A stretch of 64,000 nucleotides of DNA from contig CM037588.1 in the NCBI GenBank assembly GCA_021018995.1, positions 93,160,765 to 93,224,764 of the forward strand, written 5' to 3'. The stretch comes from Chloranthus sessilifolius. Its lineage: Eukaryota > Streptophyta > Magnoliopsida > Chloranthales > Chloranthaceae. A program made the translations under genes and the position numbers. Under the pieces are notes generated by a model, which saw only the letters and a program-made list of their open reading frames with translations, ran no database searches and was not told the DNA's origin. Shown here piece after piece: positions 27,781 to 58,083 of this stretch; positions within the stretch are counted from its first letter, which is position 1; each line of letters starts with the position of its first letter.

Positions 27781-27796
27781 AAATTCTCAAAAGGTT

Positions 27797-30535: not shown

Positions 30536-33360
30536 CTACACAAAAAATGATACACTATTTCCTAACAAATACAAGTGCACAAGTTGATCATCAGAGTCCT
30601 TGGCCTCAGCTGGTGGTTCCTTGATTCCCTTCCCCTTTGCTTGCTTCAAAGTGGCAGCCTTAGACAGTGGTCTTTTGGAAGTAGTTTTCCTAAGCTTGGC
30701 TAAGCTTTTTCTTGTTGGAGTGGGGGAAGGATTTTGTGTAGGTTCCTTCATTTTGAGTCCAGGTTTGACGGGGCAAGGACTCGTGGCATCCGGAGCTGAT
30801 TGTTGGAGAGGTACATCAGGGTTTAGTTCTTTAGAAAGAGCCTCTGCCATCTCTCAGCCAGTTTAAGCATTTACCCATTTCTCCAAAGCTATAATGGTCA
30901 CTCCATAATCATAAGCTCGCTCTTCAGTCAGTCGGAGCTTCTCTTTTAATTCCTTGATGACATCTTCCTGACTCTCTACTCTGTTCTTTGCTTCATTGTA
31001 TTGGACCACGATCTCCCTCCATCCTTGCTTGATTTCCTTTTTCTCAACCTTATGAGCAAGCTTTAGTAGTTTAATTTGATCAAGGAGGGGCTGCCGTACT
31101 ATAGCTTTCAAGTCAGCCATGCCTTGAACTACATCTCTTTTTATATAGGCATTAGCTTTCATGGCTCTGATGAGGGTGGAGTAAGGGGGCATGGGGGTAG
31201 CAAAGATAGGAAAGATGGGCATACCAGCACTGGAAGAAGGGCCAACCGGGAATGGAAGGGGACTGGATGAGGACAGAAGTGGGGTGGAGGGCAGAGGGTG
31301 AGGGACATGGATGGTAGGCTCCTGTGGAGGTAGTTGAAGGTTAGGTTCAGTTTGTGTGGAGGCAACTCTAAAGGTTCTGAGGGAAGTTTCAGGGATAGGT
31401 TCAATGGGAGTAAGAGCTGGTGGGGGGCTAGGGATTGATGTAGGGACAGTTGATTGTTGGGGCTGTTGGGTGAGAGTGGTTAAAGTTGCCTGGATGGATT
31501 GTAAAATGTTTGGGATGGAGGTAGGGTTTGGTAAGGTGGAGTGAAGTGAATGATGTTTGGCCTCAATTGTAGCTTGGGTTTGGGTATTGGCCAACATTTG
31601 GGAGTGTAGGAAAAGTGAGAGGTGTAGGATTTGGGGTAAGAGGTCTGGTATGGTATTGGGTGTGGGTTAGATAGGTGAAACTAGTTGGAAGGGAGATGTG
31701 GGTCTATGAGTGAAGGTAGTGGCCTGTTGTGGTGTCTAATGTGGAGGGGCAAAGTGTGGAGGGTGAGTTGAGTCTGGGAGAGGTGTATACTCAAGGTTGA
31801 TTTCTCCGAGGATAGTCGACATCATAGTGGAAAAATCCTCTCCTGAAAATGGCTCATTACCATGGGATAAGGGAATGGATTGGTCTACAGGCTCACTAGG
31901 GATAGGTATAAAAGGTGAGAAAGTCTCAATGGAATACTGGGGGGCTTAAAAGGTATGGGCTTCAGGTTCATAGGGTGTGGGTATGGGGATTGGACTAGTT
32001 GGGGTTTTAGGGATTGACATTGGTTAGGTTATATAGGTGGGTTGGGGTGTAGAAGGGGTTTTAGAAGTTTTTCTTTTCTTCTGGTATGGGGTCTTGACAG
32101 GTGGGCTAGAAAATAGGTAAGGGTACAGGAGTGGGTAAGGTGGCTGTGGCTATGGTGTTTAGTGATGTAGGGTCATGTAAGGGTAGTGGGTATGTGATGG
32201 GTTGTGATGTCTGGGTGAAAGGTGTAGGAGGTATGGAGGTAGGGGTAATGGATGAAGTGGTGAGTGTGGTGCTGGCTGACACAAGTGAGGGAGAGGTTGC
32301 AGGAGTAGCAGCAACTGCTTCCTGAATGGTGGGGGCTGCATCTCTCAGTAACTCCTCCCTCCTCTTCTTCTTTCTTGCCATCATGGTTCCACTGACTCCC
32401 CATTAATTATTTCCACTATGTTTGGGGTTCAATGCCACAGTCTCCTCCTCCCATTGATATGGGTACTTTCCCCACTTCAACAATGCTGTAATCAATCTAC
32501 AGTAGGGAAGGGCATGAGGTTTCTTCAATATCTTCACCTTCTTGCATAGATTTATCATCCCCTCAAAAACTAACTTGGCTGCATCCAAGTAGTGGTTTCT
32601 ATGAAAAGATAAGAGGGCATCAACTATAGGGTACCTCCTTTCCTGCTCATGCCCAGAGCAATATACATTTTTGCGCAACACAGCATCCATTAGCCTAAGG
32701 TTGGGGTGCAGATCCCTCTTTCTGACTGAGTCACCTAACGCAGTGATCCCTCCAGTTAACTCCTTGGCTATCTAAGTGATGGTGGCAGTCAAAGGTGGAC
32801 CCAATCCCCACTCAGGGTTATACCTAGCTGGTATCCCTAGTATCCTTACAATGTCTGCCTGGATGAATAGCATCTCAAAATCATCAATTAAAACCAGCAG
32901 TGCTTGGTTCCCATCATCACCAGTTTTTAACTTCATATTCTGATAAAATAACCTTACCAATCGTGAGAAAACCAGCTGCATTAGGGGCCTCAATAGGGGC
33001 AGCAGAGATGCCTTAGTCAGATATTCAATGGAGGCAAAAGTTTCTGGTAGCTCCTCAAAATAGGCTTTGTAAAAAATTGTTTCAACCTCCAGCTTGATTG
33101 CTTGCACAAAGTCAGAGGGGACCCTGAGGTATTCAGTAGTCTCTTCCACTTCAACCTCAAGGGTCACAGCTTTGCCCTTTTTCTATTTCTTCTTCAAAAT
33201 TTCTGGGCTCTTAACTGGTGGGTGGTCTCTGGCCCTCTTCTTTGGGGCAGATTTCCTCTTTTTTTATGGAATGGAGGGCTCAAAAATAGGTGAGGGAGCC
33301 TCAGAGGTCTCCAATGTGGAGGCCTCTACAATCCTAGCCAATTTTCTAGTGGCCATAGGA
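30536..33360 (-). pseudogene. Accessory ORF of C (putative plant transposon protein-like)
   Basis: Minus-strand coding remnant, parallel to the whole ORF of D. It begins with a basic segment (KSAPKKRARD, as KSAPVKRARD in D). The domain follows: LVRLFYQNMKLKTGD, LVLIDDFEMLF and VRILGIPARYNPEWG near 32780-32970, and VLRKNVYCSGHEQERRYPI near 32620-32690. Then come a Pro/Ser/Thr-rich linker, a coiled coil (VESQEDVIKELKEKLRLTEE near 30900-30990) and a Lys-rich tail. I match the domain, from memory, to the plant family PF20167. It is not a replication enzyme. Nuclear localisation and DNA binding are only suggested by the basic segments. Fossil with several breaks. Confidence 0.65.
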
Positions 33361-33794
33361 CTGCCACTGACGGATGGGTTCAGCATCGTGGAAAGGGTAT
33401 CTACAAATTTTAAACCCGTGGCCATAGGTGCTCAAATTAGTAAAATTTGGGTTTATAACTTTCAGAGAATACCACTCACTCACAGTAAGCACAAAACCTT
33501 CAAATTCCCTCCTTCCTTTCTTCTTTTAACTAAATCAAGCACAGGGCAGAGGGAAAAATGGAAATTGTACCAGTTGAGAGCTAGGGTTCCACTTGAAATT
33601 ATGCATAGTAGCTCAAATCCCCCCAAACCTCACTCGTAGTTATCAAGAGTAGCTGGGGAACAATATGATGGGAGGAAAAAGCATGAGGTAGTGTGGATTA
33701 CAAAGTAGAGAAGAAAGGAGGGGAAAGGAACGTCGGTTCTTGTGCTGAGAAACTAGGCCAGACAAAGGAAATGAAGAAAATGAGGGGCTTCACT

Positions 33795-34245
33795 GCATTT
33801 ATAGAGCAAATCCCGTGGTTCACAGAGATGGCAATAGGAGCTCGCGGAGTAAAATTTTCACGTAGTTGGCCTTTAAGACCGCGAGGCGTTCTATCGCGCA
33901 GAAGAACAAACTGCCTCTCATTGAACACGCAAAGCTGAATCTTTTACCATAGTGCGCGATGCCTTGTGTTGCCTCAGAAATTATTCTTGTGTGGTGCTAG
34001 CACAGAACAACACTAAGCCATGCTTCTCTTACAGCTTGAGCTCGCGGAGCAGAAAGGCAGCTCCGCGAGGCATTTTTATGGCCATTGCTTAAGCTTTTAG
34101 TGCACGAGAAACCCAATTGATGGCTCGTGCAATAAATTTAAGAGTCTAGTTCTGCGAGACAACATAACTTCTCAACCTTTACTCAGTGAGCTCAGTGCAG
34201 CATAGTGGTTAGTGTATTCATGCTGTTCTGCACCCAACCACCGTG
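33795..34245 (-). promoter_or_regulatory. Internal promoter-like block of C: TATA box and CTCGCGAG motifs
   Basis: On the minus strand a cluster of CTCGCGnAG-type motifs (34245 down to about 33835, for example GCTCGCGGAGC, TCCGCGAGGC, ACCGCGAGGC, TCGCGCAG) is followed by CTATAAATGC at 33796-33805, then by the accessory ORF about 450 bases on. This is the same order of motif cluster and TATA box as in the U3 of the LTRs of this group. The accessory gene may therefore have had its own promoter, separate from the LTR. Confidence 0.55.
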
Positions 34246-34303
34246 CATGAGCATCAACCCTCAGACAGATAATTCATTTCAATCATGAAACACATATGCC
34301 CAT

Positions 34304-34654
34304 TTAAATCAACAATTCATCAACATTGTAGGATTCTAAAAATAGTTCTTCTTTACTAAGCCCATGAAACGAAGGCAGCATATTGATGGTGGAGGATTTA
34401 ATCTCATAATTCCCTTCAATAGAGGGGAATTGAATGCAGAAGGGAGAGGTGTACTCCCCAGGTGCATTGTATTCCTTTAATATTCTCTGCCTCTCAACCA
34501 TGATAGCTAGTTCAGTTTCAACAGAAGGGCTTTGTGTGGAGTGTCTAGGTCTAAGGATCCTTTTCACCTCTAAATTTGGGGGTTCCAAGTCAAGGTTGAA
34601 GGACCTTCTACCGAGCATACACTCACCAACAGTAATGAAAATGCTTACAAGCAC
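34304..34654 (-). pseudogene. Gag N-terminal remnant of C
   Basis: The translation has CMLGRRSFNLDLEPPN, LKEYNAPGEYTSPFCIQFP, EGNYEIKSSTINMLPS and FHGLSKEE. It matches the gag start of D (CMLGRRSLSPALEPLN and so on, 55040-55310) residue for residue in most places. Only this N-terminal part of gag is seen. A capsid role is known for the family. Confidence 0.7.
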
Positions 34655-34933
34655 ACAGAAAGAATTTCAAATAAAAAGTAATAACTACATAGATTTACAC
34701 TTAAACAAAATAGTAGGGGATTCAACATAAATGGAGTGAGATTGGGGGGAAAGAAAGTGCAAACAGAGCTAGCTACACTCCAGCTGCAGCTCTAGTTTTT
34801 CCCTTCTTCTGCTATCCATTGCTGTAAAATTCCATAAAGAATCATTAGTACTTTTATTCTAGTTTAGGTATAGCTACAAAGAATTTGAACATCTACATTA
34901 TAGTACAACTCAAGTTTACTAAAAAGATCCATA

Positions 34934-34953
34934 TCCCCGACAGCAGCGCCAAT
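34934..34953 (-). promoter_or_regulatory. Primer binding site of C (tRNA-Asp-like)
   Basis: Minus-strand TTGGCGCTGCTGTCGGGGAT resembles TGGCGCCGTTGCCGGGGAT, complementary to plant tRNA-Asp, with three differences. It lies about 10 bases inside the 5' LTR. Confidence 0.65.
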
Positions 34954-34963
34954 GGCTCACTAG

Positions 34964-36871
34964 TGCCCACAAAAAGGACCATGCAATAGGTTGAATAGGG
35001 CTTTAGATTCAGCTGGTCATTGCTACAAATGGTTTGCAATGACTCAGCCTCAAGCTGCAATTACTACAAAGAGATTAGATCTAACATCTAATTTCAGCTA
35101 AGTAAAATAGAGGGGAGCCAGTTCCTATACAAACCTCCTCACAAGGCTCTAGAAGCTCATGTGCAGGGGAGAAGAATCCTTCTCAAACATGTGAATTGAC
35201 ACAACCTTAGGGCTATACTCTGTCCACTCGAATGGTCACAGGGTATCCCATTGGTCTATCCATATCACAGAGGCCAGAGAAAGAACATGAAAACTGCTAT
35301 AACCACCATGGTCCATAGGCCTCCGAGCTCCCTGGATCTCACTACAGATCTAGCATTGCTTTCCATGGGCCTATCAAACTAAGGGAAATTAGATGGTAAA
35401 CAATAGATCTACTAGAAACTAAATAGGCTAGTCCCAAATACATGGATCCTATAAACATCTAAAGAAACCATAAGATCTTTAGATTCAATTAGGCATTAAA
35501 ACGACAATCCATTGATGAACACAAAACTTACAATGAATTATCTCCAGGCTACAGCCTATACATAACTGCTCATCCATAATCCCAATATATACAAAAACCT
35601 ATTACAAACTAAAATAAAACTAAACCTAGCTGCTTACAGGGGAATTAGCCAACAAGTGCTGGGCTAAGAGAGAAGAAAAAGGGGAAAAGGAGGTGATCAA
35701 ACCCTAACCCTAGACTGCTGGAGCTTGAAACTGACAGAGGATAAAAAGAAGAGTTGATGATAAAACTAAACTCTAAGTGTAGCTTATATACTCTTTCCAT
35801 ACTGCCTGTCTCTGAAGGGATTAATCCTAATTTCTCCAACAAATGTGGCACTGTTACATCCCTTGAATATCTTGAGATGTGCACCATGCCCTGAAACATT
35901 TGCTGGAGAAATTAGGGTTAATCCCAAGATATTCAAGGAAATTCCCAAAATGTCCTTAAGTTAAACTGAGAAGCGGGGAGCCCGTACTTTACGGGGCTGG
36001 CGCATGCATTTACTTATTCAAGCAGTTGCAGGGCCTTCACAGAGTAGCTTTTGGTTGGTGGGAAGTGCTCAATCATGTAGTTACTCTTCAGTTAATCATG
36101 CAGTTGCTTTGCATCGCAGTGCTGTCGTGGAGATGATCTGGAGTGCCTAGACTTCTCGCACAGTAGAGCTTCAGAAGCTCTCTCTCTCGCTAGGTACTCG
36201 CGGAGTTATGCTCCTGCGCTCACGTAATAATTTGTAAGGCTTCATAGAGTGCGAGATCTATGCGAGGAGAATTCTGGGAGTCTCTCTCTTCTAGGGCCAC
36301 GCACGAACTCCGCGAGGTGAATTTTAGTTCAGTACACACTTAGACTCGCTATGTTCGTCGCGCTGCTGCTTTAAGGCTTTATCTCCGCAAGAGCTTCGCG
36401 ACCACAAATTCTGAGGGTTTTAGTCTGTGAGATCTTTGTGATATCTTTATAGCTCTTCTCTTAATTGCGCGTCCTATCTGTGTGAGGGCATCTTCCACTG
36501 CATCTTTACCTTCACGAAGGAGCTTCTCAACTCTGCGAGATCTGTCTTTCTATGCTTCAATACATTGCACTTGCTGCTTTTACAGTTTCTCCACTCTCAG
36601 CCAACTTCATTCATTTGCTAGGCATTTGGTCCATGATGATCAGCACCTGGTCACCATGGTGAGCACTATTAGGGTGTTCCATTAGGCTTTGGTTCAGCTG
36701 TCATCTTTGCATGTCTTCTTCTTCTTTAGGCCAATAAGGATGGATTCTGTGTTAAGCTGCATAGATTATTGCTAACTACAAAACACACTTAACAGATGAT
36801 TATTAGTCTGCTTCAAGGTCTATTAAAGGCTAGTTTAAGAGGTGAAAAGTGGTACTTTTCAGTAAATAACA
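34964..36871 (-). repeat. 5' LTR of C
   Basis: About 1.9 kb, starting on the minus strand with TGTTATTTACTGAAAAGT. The inverted repeat TGAAAAGTaccACTTTTCA is at 36843-36861. A dense group of CGCG-, CTCGCG- and TGCGAG-type motifs covers 36000-36540, and a TATATAAGC box (minus) is at 35783-35791. By eye it differs from the partial 3' LTR by about 7-9 per cent, much of it C/T and G/A. Confidence 0.75.
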
Positions 36872-36872
36872 C

Positions 36873-37376
36873 CTACAGAGCTATTTGTGGGTGCATCCTA
36901 CAGAGTTTCTGCTTTACAGGTTTCGTGTCGGGTTCCAAAATGAATCGATGTTCTTCCAAGCTGGGGTCTAAACCAGGCATATCTTCAAAGGACCATGCGA
37001 AAGAGTCAAGGTGTTCTTGCAAAACTTGGACAATATGTTGGCATTCTTTAGAGTTAAGCGCTGCACTAACTAGCAATTTCTTAGGTTTCTCTTTGGTGCC
37101 AAAATTAATTTCTTCTGTCGGTTCCACGGCAGCTATAGTTTTCTCGTCGAAATGCTTGATAACCCGTTGGAAGCCCTGCGCCCCCTCGGTGACCGGTGTT
37201 CTTTCTTCCTCATCGGTAAACTTGTATATTGTAAAATTATTACACTGGGGATTCGATTTTATGAGAAGTGACCCTTCATTGGCGTAATTTATGATCGAGA
37301 GATCTTTGGTAAGGTGAAAGTTAAGGCTATTGATTCTTCTCTCAAAGTCATGAAGTATCTCGTCAGGTATGCTCAC
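36873..37376 (-). pseudogene. Start of reverse transcriptase, element I
   Basis: The translation includes INFGTKEKPKKLLVSAALN, LQEHLDSFAWSFEDMPGLDP and EEHRFILEPDTKPVKQK, the typical RT entry of Tat elements and parallel to 18655-18850 of B. The palm with its YVDD box is not present because C begins here. Confidence 0.8.
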
Positions 37377-39114
37377 CGGCTTGTTTAGTCGAGATGTTTT
37401 ACGTCCTAGCGCTGGAGATGGGATAATAGTCTCAGGAGAAAAGTCTCCTTATTGATTGGACGATGGATTCGAGACGGTGTAAAACATCTCGAATAAACAA
37501 AAATAAAATGAGATCTTCTGAATAAATGACGCAGGTGACAGGGGTATCGTAGTTTGGATTCCCTCTATCTCATTGATTGTCTCTTCCACAAAGAATCTCT
37601 TAAGATCGTAATCGATTGAACTATCATCCTCAAAGATATGATATGGTTGCTTTTCCCATGAAGGGGAGTCTCCTAAAGGACCTCTAGGGGGTGGGAGCTC
37701 TTTCTCTTGATCTTCATAATACGTCAGGATTTATACGCATGTTCGGCAACGATGCTGGTAATGGTAAAGAACGCATGGAGATTCCCAAGGGCATTCTAAT
37801 TCTTCAAATTTATAATCATCGATAATATCAAATTCACTTTCTTGATCTGATAAAGATTGGAGTCCTAGGTTGGCTTGTTCTGCTAATTCGAGTGTGGGGA
37901 GGTCTATCCAGTAGTCCTTGTCGACACTTGGCGGAGGTCGCCACTCTTCCTCGAGCGATTTCCAAAATATTTAGAGTTGTAGTGCATTTGGGGATGAAGG
38001 AGAGTCTAATTCAAACTCCTTTTCAAACCCCAAGAGTGCGACATGGGTATTTCCTCCTGGGTCAGTCAACTGGCTGTCAGAATTCTCTTCTTCTTACGTC
38101 GATAGCGGAGCCGGTGAGTTGTTGCTTATTTCCATCGTTACAGGATCTGAGCCGTTCACTTCTATCATCGCAGAATATCGGATCCCACTAGTGAATTGCT
38201 CTAATATGTGAATGCATGCCTCACAACGGGGTTGATATGGGTGAGAGATACAAGGTGAGTCCTATGGGCATTCCCATCCTTCAAGGCCAAGGCCGAGGTG
38301 GATGCTATATGAGTTAAACTCTGCTTGTGAGGCATCATCTTCTTCCCACATTGAGTATAAATGTTCTTTATCTCCTTGCAAGGTAGCTATGTGGAAGTCC
38401 TCATCATCAGTGGATTCCCAATCTTTTACTTGTGGGTCGGGCTCAGGAGGTTCTTCCTTCTTCTCCTCTATGTGCTTTTTGAGATCAAACAAGGGTTTGA
38501 TTCCTTCAAGGGGTTTATCAATGTTGTCTTTTAGGTTCGTCAAATTACTGAATGCTTTAGTCATTTGTTCAATTTCCACTTCTTGGGATTTAGTGAAGGA
38601 TACCTCATTTTGCCTAGGTGCATTGTCTTTCTCAGTGGTCCCATAGATGAAGTGATCATATAGAGACCATTTTAGTGAGGTAGGGAACTAGTCAGCTTGT
38701 GAGCAGTCCGATTGATATCCTAGCCCTATGTGTTTGCGTATTTTTGTTGGGACAACGGGTCCTACATGACCTTGCTTACTCTTTTTGAGTCCGGTGTGAG
38801 GAATGTATCCAAGTTGGTACCTAAGATCCCACCCCTTTATTGCGGTGGGGATGATGCCATTAAGCTTGGCGAGGTCTGGAGCAACCTCTCTCCTCATCAA
38901 CTCTCGTCGACACATCAGGGGAGAACTAGGATGGGTAGGGTCAGACTTTTGCTACGGTTGTCTCATCCGAGAATCGAGTCTTTTGAATGTGTCCTGTATT
39001 TAATATGGAATCATGGGTCGTTGGAATGCTTGCCGCATAATCAGTATCCATTTCCTGGAGAGGTGTATCGGCGTATATACGGACGATGGAGTCCCTGTAT
39101 GGGAACTTGACGCA
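37377..39114 (-). pseudogene. Protease-RT linker of element I
   Basis: An acidic, poorly conserved polyprotein stretch (for example EEPPEPDPQVKDWESTDDED near 38400-38450) and a glycine-containing segment GYIPHTGLKKSKQGHVGP with HIGLGY (38690-38830) that resembles a G-patch, as in the linker of B. Fossil with breaks. Confidence 0.5.
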
Positions 39115-44834: not shown

Positions 44835-45519
44835 ATGAGATCAACACTTACCATTGATTGAATTCTCATACAATAATAGCTTTCTGATGAGTATCGGTAT
44901 GGCCCCTTACGAGGCACTATATGGACAACGATATAAATCAACGATTAATTGGGAAGAGACCGGAGAAAAGTTTATATTAGGTTCAGAAGTTATCGAGAGT
45001 AATGCCGAGGTTGTTCGTCTGATTCGTCAAAGGATCAGAACAACTGAGAGTAGACAGAAGAGCTATGCCAATTTAAAAAGGACAAGAGTCAATTTTCAAG
45101 TTGGTGATCATGTGTTCATCAAAATTTTACCAATGAAAGGTGTAATGCACTTCAGAAAGAAGGGAATGCCAAGCCCATACTATATAGGACCTTTTAACAT
45201 TTTCGGATGGGTTGGCAAAGTTATATATAGAGTTGCTCTACCTCCGCAACTCGATAGGGTACACAATGTGTTTCACGTGTTGATGCTGAGGAAGTACGTG
45301 AAGGACCCGACTCACATTTTCGATGAGCAACTGATTGAAATTTATGAGGATTTGACTATGAGAGAAGAACCTGTTTAGATACTTGATCGAAAGGAGCAAT
45401 TATTGTGCACTAAACATTTCCCCTTAGGGCTTGTTGAGTGGCGGAATCACTCAGTAGAAGAGGACACTTGGGAGCGCAAAGCAGAGATTCGCGATCAATA
45501 CCCACTTTTATTTCAGTGA
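44835..45519 (+). pseudogene. Integrase C-terminal part and chromodomain-like end, element G
   Basis: The translation runs LPLIEFSYNNSFLMSIGMAP, EALYGQRYKSTINWEETGE, FQVGDHVFIKI, then RKKGMPSPYYIGPFNI, LDRVHNVFHVLMLRKYV and finally VEWRNHSVEEDTWERKAEI. These are the integrase tail and the chromodomain-type ending of Tekay/Del chromoviruses, and the plant signature NVFHVLMLRKY is clear. Chromodomains of this group are known to aid targeting to heterochromatin. Upstream pol is missing because element I begins at 44834. Confidence 0.88.
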
Positions 45520-45719: not shown

Positions 45720-45990
45720 TTATCAAAATCGATCGATCAAATTGGCAACCAATCGATCAATTTTGAAACTGATCGATTAGAATGGAAACCGATCATTCGA
45801 TTTGACAAACAGAGAAATGCCAAATTTTGTTGAAAACTGATTGATCGAACTGGAATCAATCGATCAATTTTGGAAATTGATCGATCGAAATGGGAAATCG
45901 ATTGATGAAAATAATTGACTGGCGTAATTAAAAAGTGAAATTGATCAATCGATTTTAGAAATCGATCGATCAATTTGGGCATTATATAAG
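45720..45990 (+). promoter_or_regulatory. GATCGATCGA motif array and TATA box before the accessory ORF of G
   Basis: Some 14 copies of ATCGATCGA or close variants, alternating with AATTTTGG, AAATGG and AACTGG boxes, fill 45725-45975. TATATAAG follows at 45983-45990 and the accessory ORF starts at 46209. The same motif array recurs inside the LTR of G (48538-48800) and nowhere else in the window. Position suggests a promoter with family-specific binding sites. Confidence 0.6.
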
Positions 45991-46208: not shown

Positions 46209-47441
46209 ATGGCTCCTAAAGCTAAGACAACTACTAAACCTCCAACGCCGAAGAGTCCCACATCTCAGGCAGGATCTTGGCGACACCCACCACCACTGGA
46301 ATGACCCAATGTGTGGTGGGTAGCAAAGGGTTTTAAGATTGAATGGACTTTTGACAAGGAGCTTTTCCACGAGCACGAAGCGACCACTGGGCATTTCAAT
46401 ACCTCAGAAAAGTCAGACTGGAAAGCTTACTCCACCCTTTTATTAACTATTATTACCCACGTTTGGTAAGACCCTTTTACCCAAACAGTACTTGGGTGAG
46501 AAGGAGAACACCATATGCACCAAGATAGATAACAGGGTCTATGAATTCAACCATGGCCATGTTGCCGATGCAATGGAGTGTCATGCATAGTACTATGATG
46601 AGATCGATTTGATGGAACCAAACCCAACACCTCTCGACCATCGTATTATACTTGAGAAAATGACCAATGGCAAGCATGGATCAGGCTAGTCGGTGACGAG
46701 AGCCCAGTTACCCAATCGTTTATGGATGTTAGATGTCATTTTTAAGTGCAACCTCTACCCAATGAGACACAAGACAGAAAGGGTAGGCGTTGTATAGCAG
46801 GCACTATTTTTGGCCTTCTCAGGACAGTGGTTTAATGCACCAGAGGTAGTTTTTGAGGGCATAAAATATGCCTGTGGGAAAATGTTGGAAGGCGGAGCAA
46901 AACCCTCAGAGGAGATACCTTACGTACGCCTTATCTCCAACATGATAGAAGATTACTCTGGCAGAGAGGATTATGTGATTTCAGAAGAGAAACCGAGGTT
47001 AAACGACAATGTGAAGCGGTATTCGCTAAAAGAGTGGAAGAAAAGCTATAAACAGTTACTGAAAGCCAGGAAGTAGGAGAATAGGAGCAACCTGCTCCTG
47101 CTAGTCAAGGATAAGCATAGCCAGCACCAGCAGCGCAGCCTCAATAGCGTGCTTCGCACCGTGTGCCCCCACCTCAGCAGGCACCTGCAGCTTTGATCGA
47201 GGATGTTCTGGCCCTCATGGCTAAGAACAATCGCCAACTGCACTGTCATATGGATTACCACGAGAGCGTGCTGACCCATCAAATGCGGCATGCATATCCT
47301 ACTGACTATATGTCTCACCTTGCTGACACTCGTGCCTATGTGGTTGACCCGCATTCCTACACCACAGACACGTCTACTTTAAAGAGTAGGGATACGGAAA
47401 GGGATGAGGTTGGACCATCGGATACGCAGCTGTATCAATGA
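46209..47441 (+). pseudogene. Accessory ORF of G, downstream of pol
   Basis: The gene starts MAPKAKTTTKPPTPKSPTS, like the basic MAPK start of the D ORF. Near 46810-46970 it reads FSGQWFNAPEVVFEGIKYAC and EEIPYVRLISNMIEDY, matching in order and spacing SLGHGFNAAWLIFEAMKDMM and VHTLPYGRLITKLL of the D ORF. It ends in a Lys-rich stretch and a Gln/Ala/Pro-rich tail. I read it as the same accessory protein family in a chromovirus. Extra ORFs downstream of pol are known in plant Ty3/gypsy elements. Function unknown. Fossil with several breaks. Confidence 0.55.
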
Positions 47442-47918: not shown

Positions 47919-50189
47919 TGTGACGTCTTGAAAATTTTCAATTTCTAAACAAGTCCATCCTTGTGTGTGTGTCCGACAGGTCACACGACTGACCTTGTAG
48001 TTTTGGTGGCATGAATTAAATTCCAAAAATATACCTTGAGTATAAAATAAGGAATAAGTGATGATATGGACCGTTAGATGAGTGACCGTACACTGACGTG
48101 CGGTGCATCAGCTTAACACCGAAAACTGGGTCTTAGAGTATAAAAGCAAATGGATAAGAGATTTCCAATTTTTGCTTTGTTTGTTTGTGAAAGTAGAAAG
48201 GAAGGAGAAATTAAATTCCTCCTCCCAGCCTTCTTGTGTGAGCCAACCATTTGATCGCGTCATACGAGATAGATAGAGCGAAGAGTAATGTGTACTTAAG
48301 TGGAGAGTTGTTGTAGGCTTCGTTTTGAGTACGATTGCAGGAGGAATCCACGAATTTCACTCTGAAACCCTCCGTGGCAACTACTCTTGAAAAGAGCATG
48401 AATGACCAAGGAAAGGCAAGAAAAATGTGTTAAGATTTAGTAAAAGTGTAAGTGAAATTGAGAAGCATAGGATTCAATTTTTGGGGAGAAACAAGTCAGG
48501 GAAGGAGAAACACGTAGGGCTGAGAATCAGTCAAAACCGATCCATCGAAATCAATAATCGATCGATCGATTTTGACAGGATAAAAATATGAAGAGTTTAT
48601 GGAGAAACTGATCGACTGAAATGGAATTTGATCGATTGATTTTGGAAAATGATCGATTGATTTGGGAACCGATCAAATAGATTATGATGACAAGGAAATG
48701 TGAAAACTCTAAAGAAACTGATCGATCGAACTGGAATTCGATCGATCGATTTTGGAAGCCGATCGATCAATTTGAGATTCGACCGATCGATTTATCCTAT
48801 TTCTGAGGTTTTCTGTTTTTGGGAAAGAAACTTGGGAAGACTTTGGGACTTCCTTTTCTTTGTCACTTTTGACATGTAAGATGTAAATTTGATGTGTTCT
48901 AGGTTAAGATCAAGGGTGTGTGATAAGAGGGCTATCTTGAAAAGAAGAAATCATTGTTTGGGCTTCAAGTTGAAGTAGGGAAAATCTCATAATATGTGCA
49001 TTGTATACAACTAGCATGGATATTGTGATATGATGAATAAAAGTGTGTAAATCATGAATTTTTTCATCTAATACGCATGATCTTTGTATATGGATTCAAA
49101 CAGGAGAATGTGTGTGTGTGTGTATGTGAACTACATAAGATGTGTACATGTGTGTGTGATTGAACTTCAAGATTTCCAAACTCCAAATATAGTTATAAAA
49201 TACCACATTTCACTGTGATGAACTAAAATTAAGACTTCTCACTTTGATTTAAGGTTCACGTGAAATGAATCCCTTGTGCTTTGGGACGGCGGGATATCCA
49301 TTCATTTTCTTACCGATCTGCGATAAACATCATTCGGCACAAGCATCCCTCATATGAAGGGGCTTGGACATCATGAAAATGGTTCATTGAACGAAGATGG
49401 TTGGGATTCGCATCGATATATGTGCGGCTCTTGATGCTATATATGCTCGAGATTATATTTAAGTGATCAAGTTAAGTTTTTGTTTTGTTATGTGAAAAGA
49501 TTAGAAATCATGTGAAATACCTTTGAAATTTGCATTTGAGATCAGTCTTATTTAAATTCCAACACCTTTAAATTGTAAATCTTTATTTGAAAAGCATATT
49601 CAAATTATGTCATGAGATATATGTGTGATGTGATAATATGCATGCTATTGATGATTCCCTACTGAGCTTAGACTATTAGCTCATCCCTCGACTATACGTC
49701 AAAAGTATAGGTGTAGACGTGAATACTGAGGACCTTGATCTTGACGACTCAAAATACATTCCGAAGGAGTAGACTGAGCCCCCTCCAGAGGAGTTTTTCT
49801 GATAGTTGGGAGACTAGTTAGATTAGATTTTTGTGGTTTGCGTGGATTAGGCTTGGTATGTCCAGCCAATTTTTGTTAGAAATTCAGAACATACGTAATT
49901 ATGATATACATTGTTTTGTGAACCATGTTTCGGTGATGGTCGACCATCACCGGTGGTTCGTTTCGGTTCTTTTGCCCATGTAGTTTTCTATGGTATGAGA
50001 ACCATAATTTTGTCTTACTTTTATAGAAATTGAGATTTTTGTGTTTATCTATGATGACTCTATCTGCTTAGTTAAAAATAACTGCTTTGATTTTTGCCTT
50101 ATGTGGATGTACCAAGTGTTTCATTCGGGGATCGGCCATATCGGCGGTCTGACGGTACTGGTTTTCGGGTTCAAAAATTTGGGCTGTCA
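47919..50189 (+). repeat. 3' LTR of element G
   Basis: About 2.27 kb from TGTGACGTCTTG to GGGCTGTCA. TATAAAAG at 48139-48146 is the likely TATA box. The GATCGATCGA array (48538-48800, about a dozen copies) lies after the TATA box here, so it would be transcribed. A CGGTGATGG/CCATCACCG inverted repeat is at 49930-49952. No gene is seen. The 5' LTR is missing, so the element cannot be dated from LTRs. Confidence 0.82.
48538..48800 (+). promoter_or_regulatory. GATCGATCGA motif array in the LTR of G
   Basis: Repeated ATCGATCGAT/CGATCGAAATGG strings alternate with AATTTTGGAAnC boxes. They match the array at 45725-45975 in motif and in the spacer boxes, though not as one simple duplicated block. 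Confidence 0.8.
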
Positions 50190-51340
50190 TATTGAGCCCC
50201 CTGCAATCACCGAAATTGCAGTGGCGTTACGATGAAAATTATAGGATAGAGGGAAAGCAAAGAAGGTAAAGGAATAGAGGGGAGAGTCGAAGCTCTCTTG
50301 TAGTTCCACTATGGACCTTCACGTGAATGCGCTTCCGGTGCGCTTCCAATACCGGATGGGCTAAGGAAGGGGTTTGAACCTGTAAGGCTAGGGGGACTAG
50401 AAGGTAGGAGAGGTAGGCTGAGGCCTTGATCTTGCTAAAGGTGAGGGATTTATGATGGGAGATAGGGTGTAAAGGATGAACTTAGGTTTGGGAATTTGAG
50501 GGTTAGAACTTGAAAATGGAAAGGATACTCTCTTGATATTTTTCTCTCTTTTTTAGAAATTTTTTCAAGCCTAAAGCAAGGGGGGTGGCTCTCTATATAT
50601 AGAGAAAGGGAGGATTAGTGAAGGGTTTGAGGTGCTAATTAGTTTAGCAATTTGGTAAGAGGGATCTAAGGTTTTCTAGGTTTTTTAGAGCTTAGATAGG
50701 CGGGAATTGGGTTTGGTGGTAGATGATAGGGTGGGGCTTTTAAATGGCTAATGGGTTACACATAGAACTAAAGGGGGTGCAACAGTCCTAAAGGGACCCA
50801 CCCCAAATATTGGGGTGGTCAATAAGTCAAACCCAAAAAGTAAAATTTGACCATTTTCCAAAAAACACTATTCATAAGCCTTGTGTATACTTTATATACG
50901 TTAGGCTTAGGAACAGTGTTCCTGAGAAAATAGAGAAGAACATTGTTCCCAAAAATGAAATAAGAATCGAAGTTTAGCAAGAAATGGTTTTATGATATTT
51001 TATATACGCAAGGCCAATTTCTGGAAAATTTTGCCTTGTGTATATAAAATATATACAAGGCCCAATTCTGGGCAGTGACTCAGCAGGCTTGAAAAATGGG
51101 CCTGGGACCAATCCACCAAGGGTTGATGAGATTTGGTTGGGCCTTCTAAGGGTTTGGGAAAGGGTTAAGGTTTCGAGTTAAGCTCCAAAGGTTTGGGAGG
51201 TGCTTTCAGAAGCTTGGAAGTACACCTTTCTCGAACTACGTGTTGATAGGGCCTTGGGCCAAATTTGGGTGTCTAAAGATGCCCCTTTGGTATTCGATCA
51301 CTAATGATCGCATGCCAAAGAAAGAGGCATCCGAAGAGGT
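50190..51340 (-). mobile_element. Element H: partial B-type LTR with PPT hairpin
   Basis: The reverse strand matches B LTRs over U3 and part of R: TAGACACCCAAATT near 51270, palindromes related to GTATATAAAATATATAC at 50880-51060, a TATA block (TATATATAGAGAGCC, minus) at 50594-50602, and the block near B position 14380-14480 at 50225-50330. It is clearly more diverged than the two B LTRs are from each other. Upstream (to the right) it keeps the PPT hairpin (51273-51336) and then joins D. On the left it abuts the LTR of G. Confidence 0.65.
51273..51336 (-). promoter_or_regulatory. PPT hairpin of element H
   Basis: CTAAAGATGCCCCTTTGGTATTC at the left pairs with CATGCCAAAGAAAGAGGCATCCGAAG at the right around GATCACTAATGATC. 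It is the third copy of the hairpin at 6219-6285 and 26098-26164. In spite of the greater age of H the stem is largely kept. Confidence 0.65.
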
Positions 51341-52944
51341 TGGAAAGGGGAAGTGGGGGCATGATGGAAAGTGGTAGGGGGAGAAGGTGAAAGGGCTGGG
51401 GAGTGATGTGGTGAAGGGAGTGGTGAATCTGGGAGAGGGATGTCATGGGTGGGCAAGGTATCAAGCAAGGTCGTCATGAAGGCCTGATATCCTGAAGTGG
51501 TGGCTAAGTTAAAGTCAAGATCATGGAGGGAAGATGTAGTTGGGAGGGGTTGGACTAGGGGTTGGTCAATATGGGGTGTGTCTGTGGGAATGACAGTGGA
51601 GGTGGAGGTGGAAGTGGGTAAAGATAAGGCAGGGGTAGTGTGAGAGGTTTTCTTTTTAAGGTAGGTTATCAAGGGAGGGCTGTCAGGGTTGAGGTCAGAG
51701 GATGTCGGAGGTACTAGCGCTGTGTATTGAGGTAAGGTGGGTGAAGGGGGAGTGTTGTCATGGGGTTCAACACTTTCCACCCAGGAACGAATTACAGTGG
51801 GGGGTGGAATGGAAAAGGGAGATAAGAGAGGGAAAGGGAGAGATGGAATAGGTGAAGAAATTAGTGGAGAGGCAAGTGTGGTGGATGGAGGGATTGCTGC
51901 AGAAGCAGAGGTGACAGAAGCTTGCGCCACCTTCTTTGGGGTAGGGGCTTTAGCCTTCTTTTTGGGGGCAGGGGTGGCCTTTCCCACTGCAGCTCCCTCT
52001 CCCTGCTCGAAAAAATTCTGAGCTTCAGCCTTCTTCTTCTTCTTCTGGGAATCCATTAGACTTTTGTTGATCCCCCATTGTCTTTTGGCAAAAGTGGTGG
52101 GAGTGAGGTCAGCAGATAATTCCCCCACTGGTATCTTGTATCCACCCTTCAGAAGTAATTTGGTGATGAGTCTTCCGTAGGGGAGAGTGTGGACCTTCTT
52201 TTGCAGCCCAAGCTTCACCATCATATCTTTCATGGCCTCAAAAATCAACCATGCTGCATTAAATCCGTGGCCCAGAGAGAAGGAATAGAGAGCATCAGCA
52301 ATTGGTGTCCTCCTTTCTTGCTGATGGCCGGAGCGGTAGATATTCTTCCTTAGCACTTGATCGATGAATAGCAGCTTGGGATCCAAATCTCTTCTTCTGA
52401 TAGAGTCCCCTGTGGCCTTCAAGCCTCTGGTAATGGCCTGGGCAATGGTATCGAGAGGGGCATTCACAGGGGCACCATAATCGCAGTTGGGATAAAAAAT
52501 GGAAGGAATGCCCAAGACTTCAGCAATCAACGCTGGGTTAAGCAGCATCTCAAAATTGTCAACTAACATAAGGAGGCCAGGCTGCCCATGTGCGTCTGGT
52601 CTAACCCTAAGGTGTTGGTAGAAGAGTTGCACTAACCTAGGATAGGCTAGTGCAGGAATCATTTGCATCAAGGGGAACAAACCAGCCTTGCACAAGAACT
52701 CAATGGCAGGAGCAGACAACGGCTCAGATTCAAAGAACAATATATCAAAAATGGCTTCAGGTTCTAAGGGAATGGAAATGAGGAGCTCAGAGGGAGTAGA
52801 GTAATCCGGTGTATTTGGAGCCACCTCAGGAATCACCTCCTTCCCTTTTTGTTGTGCCGTAGAGGACGTGGCTTTCTTAGGGACAAGCTCCACGGTGGCC
52901 TGGTCCCTGGCTCTCTTCACTGGTGCACTTTTAGGAGCCATCAA
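51301..52944 (-). CDS. Whole accessory ORF of D (putative plant transposon protein-like, 547 aa)
   Basis: The longest open frame in the window and the only long one that looks uninterrupted. Residues 1-40 are basic (MAPKSAPVKRARD, LVPKK). About 45-290 form the domain shared with C and G: PRLVQLFYQHLRVRPDAHG, MLVDNFEMLLNPALIAEVLG, VLRKNIYRSGHQQERRTPI and KVHTLPYGRLITKLLL. A Lys-rich segment (KKKKKAEAQ, APKKKAKAPTPKK) follows near 300-345, and the rest is Pro/Ser/Thr-rich. The last dozen or so residues are encoded beyond the junction with H. I compare the domain, from memory, with PF20167, whose function is unknown. The basic segments would fit nuclear import and DNA binding. The start fits the MAPK start of the G gene. 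Confidence 0.7.
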   Translation of the reverse strand: MMAPKSAPVKRARDQATVELVPKKATSSTAQQKGKEVIPEVAPNTPDYSTPSELLISIPLEPEAIFDILFFESEPLSAPAIEFLCKAGLFPLMQMIPALAYPRLVQLFYQHLRVRPDAHGQPGLLMLVDNFEMLLNPALIAEVLGIPSIFYPNCDYGAPVNAPLDTIAQAITRGLKATGDSIRRRDLDPKLLFIDQVLRKNIYRSGHQQERRTPIADALYSFSLGHGFNAAWLIFEAMKDMMVKLGLQKKVHTLPYGRLITKLLLKGGYKIPVGELSADLTPTTFAKRQWGINKSLMDSQKKKKKAEAQNFFEQGEGAAVGKATPAPKKKAKAPTPKKVAQASVTSASAAIPPSTTLASPLISSPIPSLPFPLLSPFSIPPPTVIRSWVESVEPHDNTPPSPTLPQYTALVPPTSSDLNPDSPPLITYLKKKTSHTTPALSLPTSTSTSTVIPTDTPHIDQPLVQPLPTTSSLHDLDFNLATTSGYQAFMTTLLDTLPTHDIPLPDSPLPSPHHSPALSPSPPTTFHHAPTSPFQPLRMPLSLACDH

Positions 52945-53229
52945 GATTCACCCTGGTGAGTGTGCAGTTGAAATTTGGAAAGGAAATATTAAGAGCAGAG
53001 TCTAACCCTAAAAGTTAGGGTTCTGTTCAATTTGACGCACGGTAGATCGCAAGAGCTCCTAGCAGGGGGCAAATGTTGATGGAAGCTTTAAGAACAAAAA
53101 TCTAGAATTTCAAAGTGAGCAATGAACTGTAGACAGGAAGCTGGAGGAGAGAGGTTGAGAGGAGTGGGAGCTAGGGTTTCACTGGAAGGAGAGGAAAGAG
53201 AAAGCAGTAAAGAAAAGCAGCGCGGGGTG

Positions 53230-53440
53230 GGATTTAAATATCGCGAGGCTCGGCACGCTTTGAAAATATCAACTCGCTGGCTAGGCATGAATGGGTCGCG
53301 AGATTAGATGTTCCTGTAAACTGCGCGAGGCAGCCCACCCAGTTATATCTGAAGCTCGTGACAGCAAAACAAAGTAGTTCTTGATGAACTGCATGAGAGG
53401 GGACCAAACCCATTATTCAGAACCCCGCGATGGCTTAACA
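53230..53440 (-). promoter_or_regulatory. Internal promoter-like block of D
   Basis: On the minus strand CTGCGCGAGG-type motifs (about seven between 53440 and 53241, for example GGGTCGCGAG, TGCGCGAGGCAG and ATCGCGAGGC on the plus strand) are followed by TATTTAAATC at 53231-53240, about 290 bases before the accessory ORF. The motif is that of the D LTR. Between this block and gag (53441-53756) I see nothing else. Confidence 0.5.
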
Positions 53441-53756
53441 GAGTTAGAATTCACTCACCCACTAGTCAGCTTTTTAACCCTGACTTTATGGGTGGATTCT
53501 CTCACAGCCTCTCTTCCAGGGACACCCATAAGCATTATAAGGCATTCACAAATTCTCACACTCTCAAAGCATTAAATTCACACATCATGAAAAGCATTCA
53601 AATACTACCATTATAATTCAATCACTTGAAATTAGCAAACAAGGGGAACAGGAATAAAAGTAGGCATAAAGTACTAAACTCAGATTCCAACAAGATTGCT
53701 ATAAATTCCTCTAAACTGTAAAGTACATATTATACAAAGGTGCACAGTTCTTATCA

Positions 53757-55340
53757 TCAATTCAATGAAAGATCCCCTTCAGGGTTGGAGGATCCTTCAC
53801 CACTCAAAAATTGGCCCTTGGGATTAACCACTGGTTGACTGGGCAACCTTCCCTCTTCTCTTTTGGCTAAGGTGTTCGCTAGTTGTCCAATCAGTTCTTC
53901 CATCTTCTTAATGCTCTGACCATGAGAGTTCACAGTCTGAGCCAAGGAACCCAGGTTTTGCAGTGAGGTCAAGACCTGGTCCTCGAAAGAAGTATTTCTA
54001 GGTTGAGAAGGGGGTAAGACCAACTGATTTTGCTACTGATGGGGCTGCTGATGGTGCTGGAAGGTAGACCTAGGGGCATTCCCTTGATTAAACTGCTGTT
54101 GTGGCCTTTGTGGTAAGGCCAACATCTGCTGGGGCTGCATGTAGTTGTCTTGCCTCCACCTCAGATTTGGGTGGTCTCTCCATTGGTAACCAACATTTTG
54201 GTGCTGGTATCCATATGGCTGCCTATTGTAGCCCCCAGATTGTTGCTGGCCATAAGATTGAGCAGCAGTAGCATGTTCCAAAACTAATTTAGGAAATTGC
54301 CCTGCAGATGGACATTCCTCCACTGTGTCCTGTGGGGACTGGCATATCAGACATGCCTCCGCCACATGAGCAGCCCCTCTGGGTTACATCACAGTCAATA
54401 ATTTGTCAAACTTCATAGAGAGGTTTGCCATCTGCAGCTACAGGTCATTGTTCCCAAACACCTCATAAACATTTCCTCTTGATCCAGCAGCAGGCCCCAC
54501 CTTTGACTCAGATTCCTTACTAGTTCTTGCCAGGGATGGCTTTTGAAAAGCATTCTCACTAATCACCTCAAACAATTCCCATGCCTCCTCAGAAGTCTTG
54601 TGCATGTAGGATCCACCACAAGAGGCATCGACCATATCTCTATTTTTCTCATCAATCCCATTGTAGAAGCCTTGTACAAGCTGCCACTCTGGGATCTTGT
54701 GGTGGGGGCATTGTTTGAGCATCTCTTTAAACCTATCCCAGGACTGGTTAAAATCCTCAGTTGGGGATTGAGCAAACGCAAGAATCTCTTTCCTCAACTG
54801 GCTAGTTTTGGTCTCAGGGAAGAACTTGGTTAGGAACTTGGTCTACAGGTCTTTCCATGAAGCAATGCTATTGTTGGGGAGAGTGGTCAACCAGGTACTG
54901 GCCCTATCCTTCAGAGAGAAGGGAAAGAGTCTGAGCCTAGTAGCCTCAGGTCCCAAACCAGTGATATTAAAAGTGGTGCACAAGGCCAAGAACTGGTCAA
55001 TATGCTTGTAAGGGTCCTCTTTGCTAAGCCCATGGAAAGTTTGGCAAGACATCTGGATGATTGAAGTTTTTATCTCATAGTTCCCCTGAACATCAGGGAA
55101 TTGAATGCTAAAAGGGGAGTTATAGTCATCCGGAGCATTCAACTCCTTGAGGGTTCTGGGTTGTTCTTCACCCATAATTGTTGTCACAGATTCACTTGGG
55201 GGCTCTCCTGTAGTGTGCCTGTCTCTCCTAAGTCTCCTTTCCCTTTCTAACTCAGGGTTAAGAGGCTCTAAAGCAGGGCTGAGGGATCTCCTCCCTAGCA
55301 TACAAGCACACCAACAGCAAGGAAAGCTTCTTGCAGGCAC
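53757..55340 (-). pseudogene. Gag of element D (Athila-like)
   Basis: The N-terminal part reads LKELNAPDDYNSPFSIQFP and FHGLSKEDPYKHIDQFLALC. The gag core has LRLFPFSLKDRASTWLTTLP, FNQSWDRFKEMLKQCPHHK and MVDASCGGSYMHKT, each a standard phrase of Athila gag. A Cys-rich EACLICQSPQDTVEECP (zinc-knuckle-like) is near 54310-54360, then a Gln-rich stretch, and the end GRLPSQPVVNPKGQF is the well-known Athila gag tail. It would form the particle. Fossil with a few breaks. Confidence 0.85.
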
Positions 55341-55641
55341 ATTGCAAAAGAATAATTGTACACTAACAAATTTATCTAACTAGTTTACAGCTATTCAGAG
55401 AATACATTTAAAACTATCCTATATACTGCTAGAAAATTTTTTAAGAAAGATAGACAGAGCTTTAAAAGTCAGAGAGTTTGCAAACAGAGGTAGCTAAGCT
55501 CCAATTGCAGTCCAACTATCCTTCACTGCTGCGGTTTAGATCTGCAAGAAAGATTCAAAATTATGTCAGCAGTATCAATTATTCACATGTGCAAAGAATA
55601 CTAAGAATACAAAAACTAAGGGTCTACTAATAGATCATCGT

Positions 55642-55659
55642 TCCTCGGCAATGGCGCCA
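55642..55659 (-). promoter_or_regulatory. Primer binding site of D (tRNA-Asp)
   Basis: Minus-strand TGGCGCCATTGCCGAGGA differs from the tRNA-Asp complement TGGCGCCGTTGCCGGGGA at two places, both G to A. It follows the LTR end CCAACA by a short spacer. Confidence 0.82.
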
Positions 55660-55665
55660 AAAACT

Positions 55666-58083
55666 TGTTGGCGGATTTCTGAGTGTGTGCTTACTTTATT
55701 GGTTGGTGGTGAAAGTCATTTAAAAATCAAAGAAAGAGTAAAACAGGGGATGGAATCAGCACAACTAAGAAATCCTAGACCTGCAAGATACAGGGTCCAT
55801 TGTAGCAAGTTTTGATAAGTAAGAGTTTGTCCCACAGGGAAAGGTGATCTACAGCTCCAAAGGAGCCATCTCTAATAGTCCCTCCAGATCTGACTACAGA
55901 TCTGGCAGTCCTAAAAAGGGTTAAAGGGATGGATGGAATGTGGAAAATAAATATATAAGGGTGAGAAGTATGTTATTGAGCCCAGATCAGAGAAGTTTTG
56001 TAACTCAGATTCAAATCTGATGTTATAGAAATCCTGTCCAGTGGCTACATTATCACCATTGAGGAGAAAGGATCCAACCCATCACTCTGCCATGATTCCA
56101 CCCTTAAGGCTATAACCTGTCCACTCAAATGGTCACAGATTATCTCATAGGGGAACCACTATCCAGGGATGGGTCAAAACATAACCAGTAAATCATTGCA
56201 GGCACTATTTCATCCAGGCTACCAGCTCAAGAATCCATAGGGAACCTCAACCTCTAAAGCTCTATATGTGGGGTTAAGGCTGTATGGGACCATGATAGCC
56301 CAGACACATAGAACCAGCAAAAGATTGAGTACAACCTTCGATCTAGCTGTCCATTGCTTGAGTGAGGCTACAATGGTCCAGTCACCAGCCTACAATCTCT
56401 ATAACCAGATCAGATCCAACATCTGATGGCGGATCTATACAAATATAGGGGAGTCTGCCTCTGTACAATCTCTCACCAGGCTTCTACAAGCTCAGGTGTA
56501 AAGAAGAAGGATCCATCTTGGATCGGTGGATTAGGATCACCCTAAGGCTATAATCTGCCACTTAAATGGTCACAGACTATCCCAGAGGCTATCCTCCTCA
56601 CGGAGCCCAAGATAAAACAAGAATATCGCTGCTACCACCATGGTCACAAGGCTACCAGCTCAAGCTCCCACGGGGATTTCAGATCTAGTGGGTCCTGTGG
56701 TGGGGCTAAGGCTGTATAGGACCATGATAGCCCAGACACACAGGTCACTTGGATCTAAGTGGCCCTTAGAATCAGTCCTCCACTGCTTTGAAACACAGCC
56801 AAAGCAATGACGGATCACAAGGCAGCATCCTTGCACAGAGCATCTCACACACAAACACAAATCCCACAAAGTATAGATCCTATTACAGAACTTCCATTAA
56901 TCTAGTTCAAAATACATCCAAAGACATAGCCAGCAAATGCTGGACTATGGAGAGAAGGAAAAAGAAAAAGAAAGCTACTTACAACTACAAAAAGAAAAAC
57001 TAAACGATCTCAGATCAGGTCTCCCAGAAATGAGATGGGTTCCTAGCTATTCCAGGATGCAGAAAGAAAAAGAAAGTCTAAGCTCTTAAACCTAAGCTAA
57101 GTGTGGGTATTTATAGTAGTGGTGTGGCGGCACATTAGGGTTAGGAAACCCTAATTTTAACAATGCCACATGGTCAAATAGTGATCCTCCGATACCTTGG
57201 GGCGCGTGCACGGAGATTTGAGCATGGGATTGCGTGCCCTAATCACTAGAAATTTCTAGAAAGTCCTCAGCTGAAGAGATGGAAGTTTGAGGTTCAGAGC
57301 TTCACTAGGTAGTCATTGTTTCCCAGACTTGTCGCGTGGTAGCTTTTGTTCTTTGCTAGGATGATTTGAAATTGAAGCTTCTACCTTCACGAGGTTTGGT
57401 TGGTTTGCTCTTCAGGTAGTCGTGAGGTTGAGTGGACATCAGAGCCTCAGATGTCGCGGGGTTGGAGCTTAAGCAGTCACGAGGTTGATCCTCGCGAGGG
57501 TAGATTTGAATAGCGCGAGAACTTTGCGAGCACTTATCTTCACTAGGCTTTGTGAGTTACCTTGCGAGGCTTTGATGAGTTCTAAACAGCGCGAGGTTCC
57601 ATGTCTTAACTGATCTTCGTGAGGGTGGCTTTGCCTTCACAAGGACGCTTTCTTCTTGAATGGCGCGAGAACTACTCGAGGAGTTCTCTTATGATAATTG
57701 CATCTGCGGCGACTGCGCGAGGAGTCTTCTGAAGCTCTCTCTTCTCAGCCGTTCTGAGCGAATTACGTGCGGTTGAGAGAAGTCTGCTTTGAACTGCGTG
57801 AGGTGTTCTATTCTTGAGCTTTGTGAGAGCTGCACGAGAAGTTATTATAGAGTCTTGGGAAACTCAGCTGAACTGCACGAAGCTCATCTTCAGGTCTGGA
57901 TTCTGACTTCATCCTTCTGAGGGACTTCTGGTGCCAAAACAGGCTTTTTAGCAGGATTCCTGGCCTTATTTTACTGCTGGGTACTACCTACATAAAACAC
58001 TTAACAATGTCTTATTAGGTGGCTATGGGTCTAATCAAAGGTTAAGTTAAGGGGTGAAAAGTGGTACTTTTCAGGTCTTAACA
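55666..58083 (-). repeat. 5' LTR of element D
   Basis: 2,418 bp from TGTTAAGACC (58083) to CCGCCAACA (55666), minus strand. The inverted repeat TGAAAAGTaccACTTTTCA is at 58055-58073. A cluster of about 20 CTCGCGAG-, GCGCGAGAAC- and TCGTGAGG-type motifs fills 57230-57870, and TATAAATA (minus) is at 57108-57115. The rest, R and U5, is non-coding. Confidence 0.88.

Follow-up and report, generated by a model that had tools for sequence, protein, structure and literature searches.

Family-specific CpG motif arrays recur in the LTRs and before a related accessory gene in several lineages of Chloranthus retrotransposons

Retrotransposons with long terminal repeats (LTRs) in Chloranthus sessilifolius carry arrays of a short CpG motif in the LTR, a match to that motif within the same element before an accessory open reading frame (ORF), a TATA-like box behind most of these internal arrays and a related domain in the ORFs. 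We describe them from a 64,000-nucleotide stretch of contig CM037588.1 (positions 93,160,765 to 93,224,764 of the forward strand; hereafter the window), plant DNA crowded with nested LTR elements from the 2.17-Gb assembly GCA_021018995.1, and from elements outside it. In each family a single DNA-binding factor probably acts on the LTR promoter as well as on the accessory-gene promoter, because the arrays are CpG-rich in CpG-poor elements, the sites of one family (D) keep their positions across copies, and the match in three families (C, D and J) is not a recent copy of one region into the other. The role of 3′ accessory ('env-like') genes is an open question in plant LTR retrotransposons, and a motif common to gene promoter and LTR makes that role directly testable.

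Results

The joint test covered eight families, three from the window and five from outside it, classed by their features as four Athila-like (C, D, H and J), three Tekay-like (G, N and U) and one Sirevirus (V). J2, K and further D copies were left out as copies, and B and P as lacking the ORF. The motif was learnt from the LTR alone, from 12 sites or, in V, from 4 because few were seen, and its matches were counted in a fixed 700 bp before the ORF and in 300 shuffles; the arrays had already been inspected by eye, and motif learning itself was unsupervised. The own-LTR motif was enriched before the ORF in 8/8 families, its count equalled by 0/300 shuffles (1/300 for N). Observed matches and shuffled means were 6 and 0.8 in C, 5 and 0.7 in D, 9 and 1.6 in J, 15 and 0.9 in H, 17 and 2.3 in G, 8 and 1.7 in N, 5 and 0.9 in U, and 11 and 1.6 in V. 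Among 40,320 pairings of promoters with LTRs, that of each promoter with its own LTR came top, and matrices learnt from the promoters were enriched in the LTR in seven of the eight families (at most 1/100 shuffles). A TATA-like box lies past the last site in 7/8 families, a count without a null; the core strings used for it were typed in after the arrays had been seen.

Motif similarity followed ORF similarity both for LTR motifs (Mantel r 0.64, 48/40,320 permutations) and for promoter motifs (r 0.67, 22/40,320), in statistics that leave shared descent uncorrected. With that qualification the original prediction, that motif type co-varies with the accessory ORF, was upheld across the eight families.

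In the window, a CpG cluster and a TATA-like box had originally been seen to precede the accessory ORFs of C, D and G, with the same family motif clustered in the LTR. The positions were correct (Table 1), and matrices learnt from each LTR gave 7 matches before the C ORF (33795-34250), 4 before that of D and 17 before that of G, each equalled by 0/1000 local shuffles; own-LTR matrices matched the promoters of families outside the window as well. The B matrix on the C, D and G stretches, and C or D against G crosswise, gave no enrichment over 1000 shuffles, and the C and D matrices matched each other's stretches weakly (P 0.026 and 0.043). A D promoter site stands near -385 in 6/6 and near -303 in 5/6 copies readable in element orientation. 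The order gag, array, ORF is unbroken in six of the seven fetched D copies (over 1165 bp in L004 and about 1500 bp in five), and is split into two pieces in the seventh.

In the LTRs themselves, an ab initio 10-bp CpG motif with the 12 best sites per LTR was compared with 120 dinucleotide shuffles. A hard-assignment search was adopted because a soft expectation-maximization search yielded no CpG motif in the B, C and D LTRs; its seeds were required to contain CG, which biases it toward CpG words. Motif strength beat 120/120 shuffles in four of five LTRs (B, D, G and H) and 118/120 in C, and nine of the 12 sites were packed into 179-366 bp in all five, as tightly as in 0/120 shuffles (1/120 for C). 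The LTR arrays thus outdo shuffled LTRs, C least clearly in strength. The span was at most 383 bp in 8/8 LTR copies vs 1/23 control tiles; strength alone did not separate LTRs from these tiles, three A-rich or repeat-rich ones reaching z 5.2-8.5 and the C 5′ LTR 2.0. In the short C 3′ LTR piece a span of 363 fell inside its own shuffles (minimum 298). The exact word TCGCGAG, originally named for both C and D, occurs seven times in the window and never in C; the words found, CTCYGCGAG in C and CCTCGYGAAG in D, are related to each other.

A scan of 283.5 kb, in which the bounds of two listed LTRs (S and R) were partly guessed, gave 38 array runs, 18 in listed LTRs, 8 before accessory ORFs and 12 elsewhere; its cut-off overlooked the arrays of the D2, C, K, J and J2 3′ LTRs and of the C, D, J and K promoters.

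For H, the LTR motif was fixed within the window before the adjoining locus L009, outside it, was read. Beyond the H LTR come a gag and a cluster of the H motif, followed by a TATA-like box and by an ORF with a relationship to that of D; 13 matrix matches fell in a 351-bp stretch (delimited after a first look), equalled by 0/1000 shuffles. Among scanned windows the H promoter ranked second (12 matches), and the top one (13) lies in a probable LTR assigned by end similarity only. In 220 kb of right flank we found related ORFs in J, J2, K (C family) and five tandem N copies. With the N LTR motif, the promoters of the five N ORFs made up five of the six best non-LTR windows in the 220 kb, the sixth, level with the fifth, having no assignment; with their own motifs the K promoter ranked first, that of J tied first with the K promoter and a probable LTR, and that of J2 tied third to fifth. 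N is a chromovirus by reading, with an array of the CTCGCTCGAGCGAG palindrome ahead of a TATA box.

Two further families came from a genome search for the domain PF20167 (Transposase_32), in which 150 of 13,856 first-look candidates were scored and two places, L031 and L032, chosen for ORF length and score and not for arrays, were read. U (L031) is a third chromovirus, its chromodomain assigned by reading, with AAATCGAGGGTCGATTT-type sites in LTR and promoter. V (L032), read as a Sirevirus from repeated polypurine tracts, has a 394-aa ORF preceded by ten CGGACGTCCG-like sites and then a TATA box. At up to one mismatch, CGGACGTCCG occurs 10 times before the ORF, once in its own LTR and twice before the TATA in the LTR of a sister element in L031, in which the gag region is fused to the PF20167 domain.

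The ORFs are related to different degrees. Against a Pfam cut-off of 45 bits, PF20167 scored 66.8 bits in V and 62 bits in the L031 fusion ORF; below the cut-off were D (40 bits, E 5e-10), L007 (35.2), N (22.9) and the second C piece (17.9, E 0.0029), and the first C piece and those of G, H, K and U gave no Pfam match. By tblastn the ORFs of C, G, H, J, N and U are tied to D, and V is connected to the others only through the Pfam profile. The 547-aa D ORF (D547), taken originally as whole, proved to be truncated: 51340-51199 matches another repeat, the 78 other scored copies match D547 up to residues 529-541 (mostly 537), and in a stop-free copy the frame stays open for 885 aa, or 865 aa when counted from the ATG. 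Stops or frameshifts interrupt the ORFs of C and G. When D547, its domain and alignment A1 were searched against protein databases, nothing came in under the thresholds, and viral contigs held no relative; a single PDB sequence match (E 0.19) was taken as chance.

Observed/expected CpG was 0.88-2.36 in the arrays vs 0.12-0.96 in the ORFs, the array bounds having been drawn by eye. Between LTR and promoter no similarity at E<0.01 was found in C, D and J. Without a common extended sequence the match is not a recent copy, and the common words of these families were kept or gained twice. In G two stretches, of 139 bp (75%) and 154 bp (71%), are similar between LTR and internal region; shorter ones occur in U (58 bp), N (42 bp), H (34 bp) and V (24 bp), and copying of a repeat unit between the two regions is possible in G, N and U. 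The G and H arrays have a 20-21 bp periodicity. Helical phasing of sites, examined in ten arrays, gave P 0.021 (H LTR), 0.028 (C LTR), 0.068 (G LTR) and 0.086 (C 3′ LTR), and at least 0.165 in the remaining six; it is not claimed.

Discussion

Under the reading we propose, each element would bear a self-addressed regulatory module, in which the family-specific, often palindromic CpG motif arrayed upstream of the LTR promoter recurs near the TATA of a second, internal promoter that would drive the accessory gene. One DNA-binding factor per family would act on both promoters. Two observations suggest that the accessory protein is itself this factor: arrays and a related ORF go together in elements of three kinds, and motif and ORF co-vary. 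We consider the chances of it about even. The protein, with a basic N-terminus, the PF20167-like domain, a proline/serine linker and a helical C-terminus, would activate or de-silence the element and its own gene, its specificity having drifted together with the motif. Taken as a whole, with the accessory protein as the factor, this self-addressed module could equally well be right or wrong.

Several findings weigh against it. First, the link between array and ORF is not exclusive. LTR arrays without a PF20167 ORF occur in B, whose copy in the window was found to have neither the ORF nor an internal array, in P, whose internal array precedes a short unrelated ORF of 80 aa, and in the Tat-like elements A and T. 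Arrays equally common in families without the ORF, and a loss of co-variation, had been named as outcomes that would speak against the original prediction; the former outcome is seen in part, and the co-variation, with shared descent uncorrected, is kept. Second, specificity is incomplete. The J LTR matrix outscores the own matrices on the C and D promoters (7 v 6 and 7 v 5), the H LTR matrix matches the G promoter (5 matches; 1/300 shuffles in the joint test, 0/1000 in the window test), several promoter-learnt matrices match foreign LTRs (for example C and D in N, D in H, N in G), and the V promoter matrix gave one match in its LTR, equalled by 42/100 shuffles. The motif of G resembles that of H (P 0.003) although their ORFs are 29% identical, and C, D and J have one motif type in common, leaving about six types. 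Third, array CpGs show no protection between sister LTRs (kept 0.45 v 0.44 elsewhere in D and 0.46 v 0.44 in B), and in C they were kept less (0.26 v 0.67, with only 3 sites outside). Lastly, an AlphaFold model from a 6-row alignment had a confidence (pLDDT) of 43 and gave no structure usable for recognising a DNA-binding fold.

The absence of the ORF could be made up from elsewhere. D carries gag and the ORF without pol (window 51301-58082), and P gag and pol-like pieces without the PF20167 ORF (right flank 128125-141580), so that P and B may be supplied in trans. P and D share 92% identity in the first 1.9 kb inward of the LTR, gag included, and about 85% in the final 1.75 kb of the LTR itself, and on this comparison the two are complementary halves of one family. 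The P internal array lies outside the top eight windows of P's own matrix, and the J, J2 and K matrices rank it among theirs. In T a comparable arrangement may perhaps serve a different gene: T and A, read as Tat/Ogre-like, have palindromic GGCGTATATA-type arrays, which in T lie in the LTR and before a leader ORF without a Pfam match.

The strongest competing explanation, which we think rather unlikely, is that the families adopted sites of host transcription factors in both promoters, gaining co-expression, and that the protein does another job such as particle or nuclear transport. The arrays lie upstream of TATA boxes, like host enhancers, those without an ORF in B, P and A/T would be expected, and the authors of the Sirevirus boxes, comparing them with plant cis-elements, recovered mainly stress-related sites (PMC2829016, in the sections covered). 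About six motif types would, however, each have needed double adoption, and motif distance follows ORF distance, shared descent uncorrected. A spread of tandem repeats by slippage, template switching or LTR-internal recombination, with no regulatory meaning, would suit the periodicity in G and H and the LTR-internal similarity in G, U, N, H and V; it is improbable given that C, D and J lack such similarity, D sites hold position across copies and the CpG density of the arrays is far above their depleted surroundings. Equally improbable is a self-repressor, a protein binding the arrays so as to curb the two promoters and control copy number, which the identical anatomy and the self-limiting Ty1 products of yeast would fit, but for which the internal arrays lie upstream of the TATA boxes and not over them.

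Related systems are known, and the papers cited here are drawn on for the passages covered. The cis half of the proposed module is already known from Sireviruses (Ty1/copia), whose palindromic CpG boxes stand ahead of the TATA in the LTR and recur before the 3′ 'ENV' ORF (Bousios 2010, PMC2829016); of 13 elements with boxes, the nine with ENV have internal copies and the four without have none. The sections covered contain no proposal that the ORF product binds the boxes. Family V has this box type, a palindromic motif in the LTR before the TATA and before the 3′ ORF. Unlike the Sirevirus case, the arrays described here extend to Athila-like and Tekay-like Ty3/gypsy elements and to other motif types, and a PF20167-like domain links the ORFs; the CGG-CCG core is absent from the C, D, J, H, G, N and U motifs, and G, N and U follow chromovirus pol.

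The proposed trans half would resemble VANC, a protein encoded by VANDAL elements for which binding and demethylation have been shown and whose family-specific short arrays turn over by tandem duplication (PMC5735166; PMC10398659). Both combine a protein encoded by the element with noncoding arrays of short motifs specific to the family, and the motifs here co-vary with the protein across eight families, descent uncorrected and with some cross-matches. VANDALs differ in being DNA transposons, the motifs quoted for them (YAGTATTAY and AGTTGTCC/AC) are without CpG, and in our system binding and demethylation are predictions. Sunflower Athila has a sense 3′ ORF with Transposase_32, predicted to be nuclear (PMC11728184), and a paper citing VANC raises as a speculation, without deciding it, that proteins from ORFs in Athila and other lineages influence their own methylation (PMC12844716); neither describes arrays or an internal promoter in the passages covered. 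TRP28 of Retand and gene23 of maize Grande are likewise accessory genes, with their own promoter (Grande), a nuclear product and predicted DNA binding (TRP28), and a regulatory role has been suggested; they differ in being antisense and in having another domain (PMC11963269, PMC7264820). A survey describes plant env-like genes as highly divergent and perhaps independently acquired (PMC6317226). Searches limited to open-licence literature showed us no paper joining such arrays to PF20167 proteins.

Spm, which differs in being a DNA transposon, has subterminal repeats. Its protein TnpA is similar in activating its own element with demethylation (PMC10398659). More tentatively, and leaning slightly toward doubt, we suggest that the accessory genes found in Athila-like, Tekay-like and Sirevirus elements might be one old, fast-diverging family of sequence-specific self-activators, each reading a private CpG motif in its LTR and in its own promoter, a counterpart of VANC across both LTR superfamilies. 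The element and its non-autonomous kin would then be switched on or de-silenced, and little else. Each family motif is a ready prediction of the binding site of its protein, and binding would show how retrotransposons control themselves in the face of silencing.

Elements of the window and further observations

C and D have LTRs of 1.9-2.4 kb starting TGTTA, a TGGCGC-form primer-binding site, which we take to be a mark of the Athila lineage, then gag and a sense accessory ORF; both lack pol, with no space for it between gag and array. The Athila-like label of C, D, H and J comes from the primer-binding-site form, gag and the sense 3′ PF20167-type ORF. G is classed as a Tekay-like chromovirus from a Tf2-type SH3 match (64.6 bits) and a chromodomain under its cut-off (22.4 against 25.1 bits). 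The 3′ LTR copy of H was found outside the window in L009-L010 (89%).

Table 1. Positions of the elements and arrays (window coordinates unless stated)
Feature	Position	Strand	Remarks
C 5′ LTR	34953..36873	-	partial 3′ LTR 27779-28729, 87% match; inner end placed by reading the primer-binding site
C LTR array, CTCYGCGAG	36000-36560	-	LTR TATA ~35785-35790
C gag remnant	34310..34621	-	tblastn vs D gag, 51%; no pol before internal array
C internal array, before accessory ORF	33815..34195	-	TATAAA 33798-33803
C accessory ORF, stop-broken	30863..33425	-	42% to D; domain pieces 32406-33182; open C-terminal piece 30863-31597
D LTR	55668..58082	-	CCTCGYGAAG array 57280-57900; TATA ~57110-57115; other copy 15737-18151, 88%
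Second D LTR	15737..18151	+	same array as D LTR 55668..58082
D gag, in-frame stops	53760..55340	-	first open piece PF03732, E 0.00037, under cut-off; remainder by reading
D internal array	53230..53440	-	TATTTAAA at 53233-53240
D accessory ORF, PF20167-like	51301..52941	-	open; cut short at about 51340 by a different repeat
G integrase C-terminus (SH3) and chromodomain	44854..45519	+	Tekay-like chromovirus; directly before G internal array
G internal array of ATCGATCGAT	45725..45975	+	TATATA 45983-45988
G accessory ORF relic	46209..47441	+	stops and frameshifts; tblastn to D547 29%, E 5e-11
G LTR	47929..50188	+	array 48530-48800; ends by reading
H 5′ LTR	61782..63751	+	AACCTATCGA array 62056-62490; TATA ~62630; body beyond window end
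B element	6732..13641	+	LTRs 6732-8619 and 11746-13641; TTTTCGA array in LTR; short element
T and A arrays	joined L009-L030 146570-146690, 148562-148768; window 26572-26767, 13645-13804

The five tandem units of the Tekay-like N have LTR-like repeats on their flanks (joined right flank 165006-213516). In L031 (932-2872) a 647-aa ORF carries a Sirevirus-type gag region (Pol_BBD match) in frame with the PF20167 domain. J (right flank 53275-53500) and P have in common a short second 3′ ORF, starting MAEDNPF and MADDKPN. Further CpG-word arrays, of CGCTCGAG and GCGCGCAATT, lie outside the listed LTRs and promoters at right flank 117566-118266 and 25466-25966, the array at 117566-118266 being the window that ties fifth with the N motif.

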